NCBI GenBank assembly: GCA_947631085.1
Contig: CANRJY010000004.1
Coordinates: forward strand, 62,001-126,000
Direction: 5' to 3'
DNA: 64,000 nt
Origin: an uncultured Clostridia bacterium
GTDB lineage: Bacteria > Bacillota > Clostridia > UBA1381
Of this stretch, positions 3,675-57,089 are shown piece after piece. The number at the start of each line of letters is the position of its first letter. The first letter of the stretch is position 1. Below the pieces are notes generated by a model, which made no database searches, was not told the origin of the DNA, and was given only the letters and a program-made list of their open reading frames with translations. The translations under genes were made by a program, and so were the position numbers.

Positions 3675-3763
3675 GGAGAAGTATCGAAGTGGTCATAACG
3701 AGCCGCACTCGAAATGCGGTCGTCCGCAAGGGCGCGTGGGTTCGAATCCCACCTTCTCCGCCA
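3675..3763 (+). tRNA. tRNA-Ser (CGA)
   Basis: Acceptor arms GGAGAAG (3675-3681) and CTTCTCC (3753-3759) pair perfectly, with discriminator G and encoded CCA (3761-3763). Anticodon stem CCGCA/TGCGG encloses loop CTCGAAA, giving anticodon CGA. The long variable arm (about 3718-3735) is the class II form expected for serine. The T arm carries GGTTCGAATCC. Confidence 0.95.
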
Positions 3764-3769
3764 GTCTAC

Positions 3770-3846
3770 CGAGATGTGGCTCAGTTTGGTAGAGCACTAC
3801 GTTCGGGACGTAGGGGCCGCAGGTTCAAATCCTGTCATCTCGACCA
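3770..3846 (+). tRNA. tRNA-Pro (CGG)
   Basis: Acceptor CGAGATG (3770-3776) pairs with CATCTCG (3836-3842), followed by encoded ACCA. Anticodon stem CTACG/CGTAG encloses TTCGGGA, anticodon CGG. It lies 6 bp after tRNA-Ser and is surely cotranscribed with it. Confidence 0.95.
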
Positions 3847-5646: not shown

Positions 5647-5655
5647 ATTTCAAAA

Positions 5656-6215
5656 TGCCGAGCAAATCTGTAAGCCGGGTTCTGTATTTGACGATTATCT
5701 ATCTCGGCGCATCGTTGCCGATACGCTCCAGCCTTGCGAGGGAAAACGCCGAGCAGGCTTAACTTTCCCAAAGTTGCTCCGAATGGGGTTTACACGGGAC
5801 TTCAGTCGCCATCGTCCCCGTGCGCTCTTACCGCACGTTTCCACACTTACCCGCATAAAATGCAAAAATGCTTGATTCCGCGTCAAAATCGAGTGCAGGT
5901 CGGTTTATGGGGTATCCGCCGCGTACTGAATGTACACATGGATCTTCGCAGACCAAGATGCGTCGATTTAAATGCGCGATTCCGCGTCAAAATCGAGTGC
6001 AGGTCGGTTGACGGGGTATCCGCCGCGTACTGAATGTACGCAAGGATGCGCCGGAGACCGAGATGTGCCGATTTTGGCGCGGAAGCGGGCGTTTTTTTTC
6101 TGTTGCACTATTTCCTTGGAGTCGCCTCCACCGGCCGTTAGCCGGCATTCCGCTCTGTGGAGCCCGGACTTTCCTCACTCTTATATTAAGAGCGCAATCG
6201 TCTGACTTACTCGGA
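5656..6215 (-). ncRNA. rnpB: RNase P RNA with an enlarged P12 region
   Basis: Catalytic RNA of ribonuclease P, which removes tRNA 5' leaders. On the minus strand the hallmark 5' core GAGGAAAGUCCGGGCUCC and the 3' core ACAGAACCCGGCUUA are intact, as is GUGCGGUAAGAGCGCAC. Helix P1 forms between 6204-6214 and 5658-5668 over 11 pairs, which fixes both ends to within a few bases. The length of about 560 nt is well above the usual 350-420. The excess lies in the P12 arm, where a 104-nt unit is present twice in tandem. The first arm pairs UUCCGCG with CGCGGAA and then a 12-of-13-bp helix; the second copy can form a similar but weaker arm. Confidence 0.95.
5874..6081 (-). repeat. Tandem duplication inside rnpB P12
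   Basis: Two 104-bp units, 5874-5977 and 5978-6081. They begin with an identical 32-bp stretch and share another identical block of about 25 bp, with divergence mainly in the last 45 bp of each unit. Confidence 0.85.
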
Positions 6216-6247: not shown

Positions 6248-7453
6248 TCAACCGTTTATTTTCGCGGCGATCCTGTCAAGAATGACTTCCGCAACCTTGT
6301 CCTTCGTCATAATATCGAAGCTCTCCTCTCCCTCGGGAGTGATTACGGTTATGACGTTTGTATCGACTCCGAAGCCCGCGCCCGCGGTGTTTAAATCGTT
6401 TGAAACTATCATATCAAGATTTTTGCTCTCGAGCTTTTTCTTCGAATTTTCGACGGCATTTTCCGTTTCCATAGAAAATCCGCATAGGAACTGACCGTTC
6501 GGCTTGTGCTCGCCGAGATATTTTAAAATGTCCTTCGTCCTCTCAAGTTCAATCGACATATCCTCTCCGCTTTTCTTTATTTTATTGCCGCTCACGGTTT
6601 TGGGTCTGTAATCCGCGACAGCCGCCGCTTTTATTATCACGTCCATACCGTCCGACACGGACGTTACCGCATCGAACATATCCGCCGCGCTGACGGCGTT
6701 TATCACATTTACAAACAGCGGCGGTTCCGATTCGGTTTTTCCCTTGACAAGAGTCACCTCCGCGCCTCTGAGCATGGCGTTTTTCGCTATGGCAAAGCCC
6801 ATTTTTCCGCTTGAACGGTTTGTGATAAAACGCACAGGGTCAATCGCCTCGCATGTTGCTCCGGCGGTTACGAGTATCTTTTTACCCGCCAAATCCTTTT
6901 CGTGCGCTGTTTCTTTTAAAATATACTCAAACAAAACACTTTCCTCGGGCATCCTCCCGTCGCCGATATCGCCGTTTGCAAGCATACCCGTATCGGGTGT
7001 AACTATCTCATAGCCGTAGCCGGCGAGCTTTTTCAGATTATCCCGAACGATCGGATTATGATACATATTGTGATTCATAGCCGGAGCGATTATCTTTTTG
7101 CACGGACACGCCATAACCGTGGTCGTCAGCATATCGTCGGCTATTCCGTTCGCGATTTTTCCTATAACATTCGCGCTTGCCGGAGCAATCATAACCGCGT
7201 CCGCCTGCTTCGCAAGCGCGACGTGCTCCACGCTGTACTGAAAATTCCTGTCGAACGTGTCGATAAGGCACTTGTTGTTTGTGAGCGTTTCAAATGTTAT
7301 CGGATTTATAAAATTGGCGGCGTTTTTTGTCATAAGCACATGTACGGTACAGTGCTGCTTGACAAGCAGCCGCGCCAAATTCGCGGTTTTATACGCCGCG
7401 ATACTCCCCGTCACGCCCAAAAGAACGGTTTTTCCTTTCAGCATTTCCTTCAC
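6248..7453 (-). CDS. coaBC: Bifunctional phosphopantothenoylcysteine synthetase/decarboxylase
   Basis: Carries out two steps of coenzyme A synthesis: CTP-dependent joining of 4'-phosphopantothenate with cysteine (CoaB) and flavin-dependent decarboxylation to 4'-phosphopantetheine (CoaC). 401 residues, normal for the fusion. The CoaC half (about 1-185) shows GVTGSIAAYK, the substrate motif APAMNHNMYHNP and the flexible-flap region with GDIGDGRMPE. The CoaB half begins KILVTAGATCEAIDPVRFIT with NRSSGKMG, and later carries the dimer-interface lysine motif NKIKKS. The RBS gaaggaaa precedes ATG 7453. Its promoter region contains copy A of the 109-bp repeat. Confidence 0.97.
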   Translation of the reverse strand: MKEMLKGKTVLLGVTGSIAAYKTANLARLLVKQHCTVHVLMTKNAANFINPITFETLTNNKCLIDTFDRNFQYSVEHVALAKQADAVMIAPASANVIGKIANGIADDMLTTTVMACPCKKIIAPAMNHNMYHNPIVRDNLKKLAGYGYEIVTPDTGMLANGDIGDGRMPEESVLFEYILKETAHEKDLAGKKILVTAGATCEAIDPVRFITNRSSGKMGFAIAKNAMLRGAEVTLVKGKTESEPPLFVNVINAVSAADMFDAVTSVSDGMDVIIKAAAVADYRPKTVSGNKIKKSGEDMSIELERTKDILKYLGEHKPNGQFLCGFSMETENAVENSKKKLESKNLDMIVSNDLNTAGAGFGVDTNVITVITPEGEESFDIMTKDKVAEVILDRIAAKING

Positions 7454-7472: not shown

Positions 7473-7581
7473 ATTATACCATAACTGCAAGGCGGCACTG
7501 TCGCCGCAGCGTTATGATACAATGTTCTCTCAGGCGTCAAAAGCTTTGCTTTTGGTAACGCCGTGAGGTTATTATACCATA
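7473..7581 (-). repeat. 109-bp promoter-embedded repeat, copy A
   Basis: Reads on the minus strand and is identical to copy B over all 109 bp. Both ends are TATGGTATAAT. The inside can form two hairpins: GGCGT/ACGCC continuing into CAAAAGC/GCTTTTG, then CTGC/GCAG with GGCG/CGCC. The upstream TATAAT is the -10 of the coaBC promoter, so the hairpins would lie in the coaBC leader. Confidence 0.85.
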
Positions 7582-7599
7582 TATCGGGGCGAAAATCAA
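7571..7599 (-). promoter_or_regulatory. coaBC promoter sharing its -10 with repeat copy A
   Basis: Minus strand TTGATT (7599-7594), 17-bp spacer, TATAAT (7576-7571) with an extended -10 TGG. A second extended -10 TGGTATAAT lies at the downstream end of the repeat. Confidence 0.7.
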
Positions 7600-39441: not shown

Positions 39442-39471
39442 TTGATTTTTGCTATTCCTATATGGTATAAT
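39442..39471 (+). promoter_or_regulatory. Promoter of the RpiB-like gene sharing its -10 with repeat copy B
   Basis: TTGATT (39442-39447), 18-bp spacer, TATAAT (39466-39471) with extended -10 TGG. Confidence 0.65.
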
Positions 39472-39569
39472 AACCTCACGGCGTTACCAAAAGCAAAGCT
39501 TTTGACGCCTGAGAGAACATTGTATCATAACGCTGCGGCGACAGTGCCGCCTTGCAGTTATGGTATAAT
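39461..39569 (+). repeat. 109-bp promoter-embedded repeat, copy B
   Basis: Identical to copy A, in the opposite chromosomal orientation. TATGGTATAAT at both ends (39461-39471 and 39559-39569) leaves one -10-like site upstream and one downstream of the two internal hairpins. Confidence 0.85.
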
Positions 39570-39623: not shown

Positions 39624-40259
39624 ATGAAAATTGCATTAATCAACGAAAACAGCCAAGCCGCGAAGAACGGCGTTATTTTTGAAACGCTCAAAAAGGTTGT
39701 TGAACCGTTAGGTCACGAGGTATTTAACTACGGTATGTATTCCGCGGACGACGAGGCACAGCTTACATATGTTCAGATTGGTATTTTGGCGTCAATTCTT
39801 TTAAACTCCGGCGCGGCTGATCTTGTAATCACAGGCTGCGGCACAGGCGAGGGCGCTTGCCTTGCGTGCAACGCGTTCCCGGGTGTTCTCTGCGGTCACG
39901 TTGTTGACCCGACAGACGCTTATCAGTTCACGCAGGTTAACAACGGCAACTGCATCGCTATGCCTTTCGCAAAGGGCTGGGGCTGGGGCGCTGAGCTCAA
40001 CCTCCAGTATGTATTCGAAAAGCTGTTTGTTGAAGAATGGGGCGGCGGATATCCGAAGGAAAGAGCTGTTCCCGAGCAGAGAAACGCAAAAATCCTCAAC
40101 GAGGTAAAGAAGATTACCCACAGAGACCTTCTCGACATTCTGCCCAAGCTCGACCAGGATTTGGTAAAGGGCGCCGTTGCGGGCGAGCATTTCAAGGAGA
40201 TGTTCTTTGCAAACTGCAAGTGCGACAAAATCGCGGAATATGTTAAAACAATCGCGTAA
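39624..40259 (+). CDS. RpiB/LacA/LacB family sugar-phosphate isomerase
   Basis: 211 residues. It opens KIALINENSQAAKNGVIFET and has the active-site region LVITGCGTGEGACLACNAFPGVLCGH, where the Cys-Gly-Thr-Gly pattern matches the RpiB/LacAB catalytic loop. NGNCIAMPFAKGWGWGAELN and a C-terminal extension distinguish it from ordinary RpiB (about 150 aa). Ribose-5-phosphate or galactose-6-phosphate isomerisation is the family activity; the true substrate is uncertain. RBS aaagaggt. Expression probably starts at the repeat-embedded promoter about 150 bp upstream, giving a structured leader. Confidence 0.87.
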   Translation: MKIALINENSQAAKNGVIFETLKKVVEPLGHEVFNYGMYSADDEAQLTYVQIGILASILLNSGAADLVITGCGTGEGACLACNAFPGVLCGHVVDPTDAYQFTQVNNGNCIAMPFAKGWGWGAELNLQYVFEKLFVEEWGGGYPKERAVPEQRNAKILNEVKKITHRDLLDILPKLDQDLVKGAVAGEHFKEMFFANCKCDKIAEYVKTIA

Positions 40260-47427: not shown

Positions 47428-47586
47428 AAATTATGATTTAGCGGAATAAACCCCTCAATCAGCTTCGCTGACAGCTCCCCTAGTAGGGGAGCCAAATGTG
47501 TAAGCCTCCCCTACTAGGGGAGGTGGCGCCATAGGCGTCGGAGGGGTTTGTGCGGCACATTACAATACACCGCTAAATCATAATTT
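47428..47586. mobile_element. MITE-like palindromic element R2
   Basis: 159 bp with a perfect 17-bp inverted repeat, AAATTATGATTTAGCGG (47428-47444) and its complement (47570-47586). The interior hairpins include CAGCTTCGCTG, CTCCCCTAGTAGGGGAG, CTCCCCTACTAGGGGAG and GGCGCCATAGGCGTC. Its ends match R1. The right end overlaps the 3' end of nfo. Confidence 0.78.
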
Positions 47587-48411
47587 ACACGCCTCCCGCA
47601 ATATACATATCTCCCGCGCGTACCCGTCCAATTCGTTCGGGGTTTCCAAAATAAACGGCAAACCCTTTAGTCTCGAATTATTAACAATCCGCGCAATCGC
47701 ATCAAACCCGAGCGCGCCGTCCCCGATTTTCTCGTGCCTGTCCTTGTGGCTCTCGAACGGATTCTTGCTGTCGTTTACATGAACAGCCTTCAGTCTGTCC
47801 AATCCTATCACGCGGTCAAAATCGTCCAAAACCCCGTCGAGATTATTCACAATATCATACCCCGCGTCGTAAACGTGGCAGGTGTCGAGACACACGCCGA
47901 GCTTGTCCTTAAGTTCCGTACGGTCTATGATTTCCTTGAGTTCCTCAAACGAGCGTCCTATTTCCGATCCCTTGCCCGCCATGGTTTCCAAAAGAACCGT
48001 GGTCGTCATATCGGGCTTAAGTACGGCGTTAAGCTGTTTCGCTATCAATTCGATACCCAAATCCACGCCCTGACCCACATGACTGCCGGGGTGGAAATTA
48101 TATAGTTGATTCGGCGTATACTCCATGCGCGCCAAATCGTCCGCCATGGTATTGAGCGCAAATTCGCGCGTAGCCTCCTTATCGGAGCATGGATTTAGCG
48201 TATACGGAGCGTGCGCGACGATTTTAGCAAAATTATTTTCCTCGGCGAACGCGATAAACGCCTTAACGTCGTCGGGATCGATCGCCTTAGCCGCTCCTCC
48301 GCGCGGATTGCGTGTAAAAAACTGAAACGTGTCCGCCCCGATGGATTTCGCGGTTTCCCCCATATTCAAATATCCCTTGGAAGATGATAAATGACATCCT
48401 ATATGCAGCAT
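47578..48411 (-). CDS. nfo: Deoxyribonuclease IV (endonuclease IV)
   Basis: AP endonuclease of base excision repair, cutting 5' to abasic sites. 277 residues with three-zinc-site motifs: [59 protein letters not shown] and FILETPNEL. Start ATG 48411 with initial [12 protein letters not shown]. The last two codons and the stop (K, L, TGA) are read from the terminal repeat of element R2, so the insertion has replaced the native C-terminal codons without harming the conserved core. Confidence 0.96.
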
Positions 48412-56319: not shown

Positions 56320-56348
56320 TTGACAAAATACCCCGAATGTGGTATAAT
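56320..56348 (+). promoter_or_regulatory. Promoter of the ThyX-like gene sharing its -10 with repeat copy C
   Basis: TTGACA (56320-56325), 17-bp spacer, TATAAT (56343-56348): full consensus, with an extended -10 TGG. Confidence 0.8.
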
Positions 56349-56409
56349 AACCTCACGGCGTTACCAAAAGCAAAGCTTTTGACGCCTGAGAGAACATTGT
56401 ATTATAACG
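56339..56409 (+). repeat. Promoter-embedded repeat, truncated copy C
   Basis: 71 bp matching copies A and B with two differences (TGTGG for TATGG, GTATTAT for GTATCAT). It keeps the left end and the first hairpin but lacks the second hairpin and the right TATGGTATAAT. Confidence 0.8.
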
Positions 56410-56435
56410 CCAAGCAAATTCAAGGAGCGAAAAAA

Positions 56436-57089
56436 ATGAAATTTGAAAATACCGAAATCTATGGCTTCAAAAGCGCCCTGCGCGGTATGCGCAATCCGTT
56501 GGAATCATGGGCGAAAAACGATACAGTCGAGGAAAACGGAAACGTCACGATCGGCGAAAACGACTTGTCCCTCGCGCGCCGCCTTATAAAATCGGGTAGC
56601 GAGCACCGTAAATTCATGCGCCAAATTTTCGTGTCCGTCGATATAACGGGGCCTCTTTACTGGTGGAAGGAGTTCGACACATACAAGGTAGGCACGGTCG
56701 CGAACAGCACCTCGACAATGCACAAGTTAGCGTCCACTCCGATCACTCTCGATTGCTTTGAAATCGACGATTACGACGGCTCGCTTACATACGAGAGCGG
56801 AGAGCTGTCGGGTATAATAAACAAGCATATCGAATTTCTTGAGGAAATGCGCGTAAAATACCTCGAAACAAAGGACAAAGCCTACTGGAAGGAGCTTATC
56901 CGCTGGCTGCCCTCGTCGTGGCAGCAGACGCGCACGGTTACGATGTCGTACGAAAACCTGCTCGCGATGTGCTCGAAGGGACAGCGGAGAAACCATAAAT
57001 TGACGGAATGGTCGGTATCGTTCATAAATTGGGCGCGCACGCTCCCCTACGCGCAGGAGCTTATTTTCGGAGACGAGCTTGATGACTGA
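56436..57089 (+). CDS. ThyX-like protein, probable thymidylate synthase relative
   Basis: 217 residues. The segment RQIFVSVDITGPLYWWKEFD followed by TYKVGTVANSTSTMHKL is reminiscent of the N-x-x-S nucleotide-binding region of flavin-dependent thymidylate synthases, though the strict RHRxxSxNExSxR motif is absent. Overlap with a dihydrofolate reductase gene supports a folate/dTMP role. A looser reading is a conserved protein of unknown function. The start at 56436 follows AAGGAGCG; the 33 codons before it are repeat sequence. The promoter lies about 90 bp upstream inside the repeat. Confidence 0.55.
   Translation: MKFENTEIYGFKSALRGMRNPLESWAKNDTVEENGNVTIGENDLSLARRLIKSGSEHRKFMRQIFVSVDITGPLYWWKEFDTYKVGTVANSTSTMHKLASTPITLDCFEIDDYDGSLTYESGELSGIINKHIEFLEEMRVKYLETKDKAYWKELIRWLPSSWQQTRTVTMSYENLLAMCSKGQRRNHKLTEWSVSFINWARTLPYAQELIFGDELDD

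Follow-up and report, generated by a model that had tools for sequence, protein, structure and literature searches.

The window, by which we mean the whole 64-kb stretch of DNA analysed here, carries three copies of a short repeat, each of which starts at a promoter -10 box, as an earlier sequence-only reading had proposed. Copies A (7473–7581, minus strand) and B (39461–39569, plus strand) are 100% identical over 109 bp, in agreement with that reading; copy C (99% identity to A and B over 71 bp, hairpin 2 absent) is truncated as claimed, but its start lies at 56340, one base later than the 56339 originally given. All three begin with TGGTATAAT, the first TATAAT is preceded by a -35 box at a distance of 17–18 bp, and the second TGGTATAAT reported for A and B is present in both. 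A covariance model of hairpin 1 returned exactly three matches in the window, namely A, B and C, at E = 1.9e-21 each.

On the minus strand, copy A follows a host -35 box, TTGATT (7594–7599), which lies 17 bp from TATAAT, and a host target, the extended -10 TATGGTATAAT (7571–7581), assigned from sequence and from empty orthologous coaBC promoters in relatives. Directly 3′ of this target lies the inserted 98-bp unit (AACC...TATAAT, 7473–7570; sequence, genome-wide search and covariance model), made up of hairpin 1 (module M1, with a 3-nt bulge, 7529–7567; covariation, fold and covariance model) and hairpin 2 (module M2, ATTG...TAAT, 7473–7523; fold of the identical copy B and pair covariation). 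The downstream gene (6248–7444, minus strand) matches PF02441 and PF04127, bearing out its earlier label, coaBC. Copy B, on the plus strand, has its -35 box TTGATT (39442–39447) 18 bp from TATAAT, followed by the target TATGGTATAAT (39461–39471; sequence, and empty in three relatives described below) and the 98-bp unit (39472–39569; sequence, genome-wide search, fold and covariance model), with hairpin 1 at 39475–39513 (covariation and fold) and hairpin 2 at 39519–39569 (fold and pair covariation); the 5′ arm of the latter, ATTGTATCATA, is complementary to TATGNTATAAT when wobbles are allowed. Matches to PF02502 and PF12408 place the next gene (39624–40259, plus strand) in the RpiB/LacAB family, as had been suggested. 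Copy C, also on the plus strand, combines TTGACA (56320–56325) 17 bp from TATAAT, the target TGGTATAAT (56340–56348; sequence, and empty in one relative) and a hairpin-1 module alone, ending in TATTATAACGCC (56349–56410; sequence, genome-wide search and covariance model). The gene behind it (56436–57089, plus strand) had been called ThyX-like, a label that found no backing, as a Pfam search of the gene gave no match. From an ATG in the -10 region, its reading frame continues uninterrupted across the hairpin-1 module (56337–57089), and the product might in principle be extended at the N terminus by copy C. The window also holds a palindromic MITE-like repeat of ~160 bp (47429–47590; ends AAATTATGATTTAGCGG and CCGCTAAATCATAATTT, core CCCCTCC/GGAGGGG), of which the same genome has at least six more copies at 93–97%; a relative of this repeat lies upstream of the ortholog of the gene behind copy C in another genome (G001, L297). 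RNase P RNA class A and two tRNA genes occupy 5655–6213 (minus strand) and 3675–3843 (plus strand).

A unit of 98 nt, placed after the host TATAAT, consists of AAC, hairpin 1 (CTCACGGCG...CGCCTGAG, with a one-sided 3-nt bulge), AGAAC and hairpin 2 (ATTGTATCATAAC...GTTATGGTATAAT), ending in TATAAT; in general form it reads 5′-AAC, hairpin 1 (CTCACG...GAG, asymmetric 3-nt bulge), (AG)AAC, hairpin 2 (ATTGNNNCAT...ATGNNNTAAT)-3′. Folded as single-stranded DNA, the plus strand of copy B forms exactly these two hairpins (z = -5.8), whereas in the minus-strand fold hairpin 2 stops short of TATAAT. Hairpin 1 covaries strongly, with two-sided changes in 10 of 16 pairs and 96.8% paired versus 83% after shuffling, and every measure beats all 500 shuffles and all slid controls. 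The outer pairs of hairpin 2 covary as well (96 combinations; 528 Watson–Crick pairs versus 364 ± 10 shuffled), and its middle varies almost without constraint from array to array and from species to species. In a strand test by wobble pairs the two hairpins disagree: hairpin 1 has A–C in 25 cases and G–T in 16, without an RNA-type G–U bias, and hairpin 2 leans to G–T. The right end of the element pairs with the start of its own hairpin 2, and because the element thus brings its own right end, an ordinary target duplication is unnecessary; a 6-bp duplication of TATAAT is still conceivable, as TATAAT stands at both ends. The ends AACCTC... and ...TATAAT are not mutual inverted repeats, which sets the unit apart from classical MITEs. 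An autonomous element carrying cargo between the two hairpins was also considered and rejected, since distances to the right end cluster at ~40–50 and ~70–80 nt and leave no room for an ORF.

The two hairpins behave as modules, with hairpin 1 alone in copy C and at L018, and hairpin 2 alone at L016 and L017. In several species a third, longer module, CTTTGCGCGCCACTG...GCAGTCTGCAAATATATGATA, stands in place of hairpin 2 (L048:1277–1780, L059, L085 and L175). On two contigs of the source genome (C14 and C31), tandem copies have an overlap of exactly 11 bp, TATGNTATAAT, and arrays reach up to six units; unit numbers are underestimates because many draft contigs end inside arrays (G029 and G009: L045, L049, L057, L060 and L062). 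The invariance of AACCTCA and GAGAACATT is not counted as evidence, because the patterns used to find the loci contain both words and so produce it in part.

A genome-wide search yielded 19 matches on 11 contigs of the source genome (best E-value 1.4e-51), and a pattern scan of GTDB genomes located the core in at least 115 stretches of other clostridial genomes. Among the matches listed, carriers are, by record title, nearly all Ruminococcaceae/Oscillospiraceae-type clostridia, including Ruminococcus, Acutalibacter, Neglectibacter, Anaeromassilibacillus, Faecalispora and other genera. Distribution is patchy within the order of the source genome, where the exact core occurs in 12 of 95 genomes and 4 of 27 genera (0 matches for a reversed control pattern), and copy number rises to 38 in one isolate. 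The exact core was absent from the viral contigs of IMG/VR, and the core from the plasmids searched. One unit lies behind TTGACA-17-TATAAT on an unverified phage contig from human faeces (L357, MT835596.1, 14540–14580), a possible vehicle between hosts. The element matched nothing in Rfam, either at the gathering threshold or at E ≤ 5, neither its sequence nor a description was found in open-access literature text, and the family seems undescribed so far.

To which sequence the first TATAAT belongs is indicated by its surroundings. Of 134 non-redundant first units, 54 have TTG at exactly 17 bp upstream (other spacings, 1–10 each), versus 1 of 49 internal units, and the left junction is TATAAT in 151 of 156 first units, a count partly biased by the search word, versus 44 of 100 internal junctions; given these differences, the first TATAAT is the host's. 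When the search pattern demanded AT alone at that place, 31 of 32 arrays from two related species (Anaeromassilibacillus senegalensis, G061, and Clostridium sp. D33t1, G066) still started at TATAAT. The trinucleotide TGN precedes TATAAT at 126 of 151 first sites, versus 11.5% of background TATAAT words, and the next ORF runs in the same direction in 94 of 125 cases by a crude ORF caller. Background TGNTATAAT words have a -35 box about as often (38%) as element sites do, and one clean insertion (L316/L332) lies at a gene's stop codon, without a -35. Both observations suggest that what is targeted is most likely the word TRTGNTATAAT in the DNA rather than promoter activity; since this word occurs mostly in promoters, insertions would fall into -10 boxes.

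Relatives have empty sites. At the copy B locus, the syntenic orthologous promoters of three genomes (G005, G019 and G014) read TTGCAA-17-TATAAT without the element; at the copy C locus, one genome (G022) has TTTACA-17-TATTAT and the same TGG without it; and the coaBC upstream regions of four genomes (G005, G003, G002 and G022) contain TATAAT without it. The close species pair G061/G066, with flanks about 90% identical (probe identity 87–96%), provides four clean empty sites (L243/L343, L316/L332, L319/L342 and L242/L337), at which one species has an array and its empty partner a single TATAAT from which the flank continues directly, with no covariance-model match in any of the four empty partners. 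Because the empty sites keep a single TATAAT, insertion occurred directly 3′ of a pre-existing one. Sites common to the pair differ in the number and kind of units (L248/L309, L250/L313, L252/L317 and L247/L310). These comparisons demonstrate, at the level of sequence, that the unit sits directly 3′ of a pre-existing TATAAT, in one orientation and with TRTGNTATAAT preferred. The original proposal of a mobile element that targets -10 sites is thus upheld by the empty orthologous promoters, the clean empty sites and the 17-bp TTG spacing, and neither of the outcomes named beforehand as speaking against it, matches mostly outside promoters or a leader at all orthologous promoters, appeared.

The repeat can be explained in several ways, of which a conserved cis-regulatory leader RNA spread by duplication with promoters is the most improbable. 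In its favour, covariation is strong and most copies follow a promoter whose transcript would include them from the first bases onward; yet the downstream genes are unrelated (coaBC and the rpiB family by Pfam; dinB-, radA-, rimM- and MATE-like genes by eye), orthologous promoters lack the element, its distribution within the order is patchy, hairpin 1 shows no preference for G–U, and Rfam offers no match, so that this reading is disfavoured. A serious but still unlikely competitor is that a site-specific recombinase of the tyrosine type, or host recombination, moves the same mobile element as a cassette: a circle junction GTTATGNTATAAT|AACC would recombine with the host word TATGNTATAAT through their shared core, which would flank the unit with direct repeats of the core and build tandem arrays resembling those of integron cassettes. 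The exactly 11 bp common to tandem units fit this account, as do the bulged hairpins, which look like folded attC sites, and Xer-type recombinases, to our knowledge universal, would leave no missing enzyme to explain. The base before TATAAT also bears on this question. In single-unit insertions it is the same left and right in 20 of 31 cases (expected 9.5 ± 2.4), in line with the cassette account, and the host base is complementary to base 7 of the 5′ arm of hairpin 2 at 87 of 136 independent first sites, versus 58.2 ± 5.3 with shuffled arms; positions beside arm base 7 barely vary or show little. One genome (G029) follows the pairing rule at 11 of 11 sites (six with an A-arm and T, five with a T-arm and G), whereas in the source genome four A-arm copies have G, not T, before TATAAT, against the rule, and at L319 the host base is unpaired with the arm. 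The base match suggests either base-paired target choice or recombination in the shared 11-bp core. Against the cassette account, many internal junctions are GGAATAAT or GATTGAAT instead of TATAAT, so core identity is not kept, the left base at the informative clean empty sites L243 and L319 is that of the empty site and not of the element, and the attC consensus GTTRRRY is not evident by eye.

The search for a mobilising enzyme bears on a further reading, that the repeats are IS200/IS605 derivatives proper (PATEs), now relics that change by recombination only, many carriers having lost the Y1 transposase. Subterminal hairpins, the lack of terminal inverted repeats and of target duplication, a position 3′ of a short word and the presence of Y1_Tnp (PF01797) in 10 of the 20 carriers searched all speak for it. 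We nevertheless regard it as improbable, though less so than a riboregulator. Y1_Tnp was absent from the other 10, including the source genome and four isolates with 14–38 copies, so that several carriers with the largest copy numbers have no Y1 gene; no ends resembling the unit beyond chance were seen at the Y1 loci examined in carriers; and identical copies and array turnover indicate recent activity. As this test for a cognate enzyme or related ends failed, IS200/IS605 membership is not shown. An IS605 right-end likeness in one genome (G014, GTGAGGTT) was judged coincidental because TnpA and TnpB are missing from most carriers searched. Derivation from IS110 (PF02371 in 2 of 12 carriers) or IS91 (PF04986 in 1 of 12) was likewise rejected. 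By eye, no recombinase recurs beside the elements, and the largest neighbour clusters look like transporters.

Among known systems, integron cassettes form tandem arrays behind a promoter, with bulged hairpin recombination sites (attC) of core consensus GTTRRRY; the element shares the arrays behind a promoter and a bulged hairpin but is non-coding, and that core was not seen by eye. Correia elements and other MITEs contribute promoter parts of their own and are bounded by terminal inverted repeats. The element is similarly a small non-coding repeat near promoters, but at its sites the host promoter pre-exists and is kept. REPs and REPINs have conserved bases at the hairpin foot and are probably moved in trans by RAYTs, which are members of the Y1_Tnp family, and REPs are not known to target a promoter word. 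REPIN populations contain palindromic units in large numbers (PMC8049555); the element is also palindromic and numerous, with conserved hairpin-foot bases and probable movement in trans, but its target is a promoter word and Y1_Tnp is absent from many carriers. PMC3049150, which summarises small non-coding promoter-creating repeats (Correia elements and MITEs), describes the BOX elements of Streptococcus pneumoniae as modular, intergenic, hairpin-forming small repeats whose module number varies between strains. Compared by the module logic of that account alone, the element is also modular with variable tandem numbers, but its modules and sequence appear to differ, and the passages on BOX consulted report no fixed insertion place in the -10 box. 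PATEs carry palindromes close to their ends, lack terminal inverted repeats and target duplication, and insert 3′ of a short word (PMC3119063), and IS200/IS605 elements share subterminal hairpins, insertion 3′ of a short word and the lack of target duplication (PMC7290912). Folds and covariation reveal subterminal palindromes without terminal inverted repeats in the element, empty sites show that it enters 3′ of a fixed short word and duplicates no target, and it is too short to code and has a fixed orientation behind that word. It differs from PATEs in that no cognate Y1 transposase or autonomous parent was found, in a target of 6–11 bp versus 4–5 bp, in its regular tandem arrays and in the coincidence of its targets with promoter -10 boxes. 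By logic, the element appears closest to PATEs and IS200/IS605 ends, and for its modular arrays to BOX elements.

We therefore favour, with a probability of roughly 0.6, the reading that the repeat is a transposase-less, PATE-like mobile palindromic element of clostridia, non-coding and built of two hairpins. Against it stand the enzyme searches, which gave no candidate common to the carriers searched, and the sites that break the pairing rule. Its anatomy would fit a mechanism in which an enzyme acting in trans recognises the folded hairpins and cuts at the joint TATAAT|AAC, after which the excised unit would be pasted behind a target chosen in part by pairing with the hairpin-2 5′ arm, a step suggested by the base match described above, much as guide bases at the hairpin foot recognise the target in IS608 (PMC3119063, PMC7290912). 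Such an insertion would leave the host -35 and -10 intact and add a hairpin leader to the transcript, and arrays would grow mainly through local unit duplication. More tentatively, the elements may represent a new class of transposase-less elements in which the hairpin-2 arm is a DNA guide pairing with TRTGNTATAAT, with a single-strand transposase or recombinase dropping the unit into the -10, possibly at melted promoters, and building tandem leader arrays before many clostridial genes.

A mobile element aiming at the -10 box could reach many promoters while destroying none, and would equip each host gene with a similar 5′ leader. In common gut bacteria, this amounts to a natural experiment on how promoters and leaders evolve. 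A further guided insertion system could come to light through the mobilising enzyme and the apparent base match of the element with its target.
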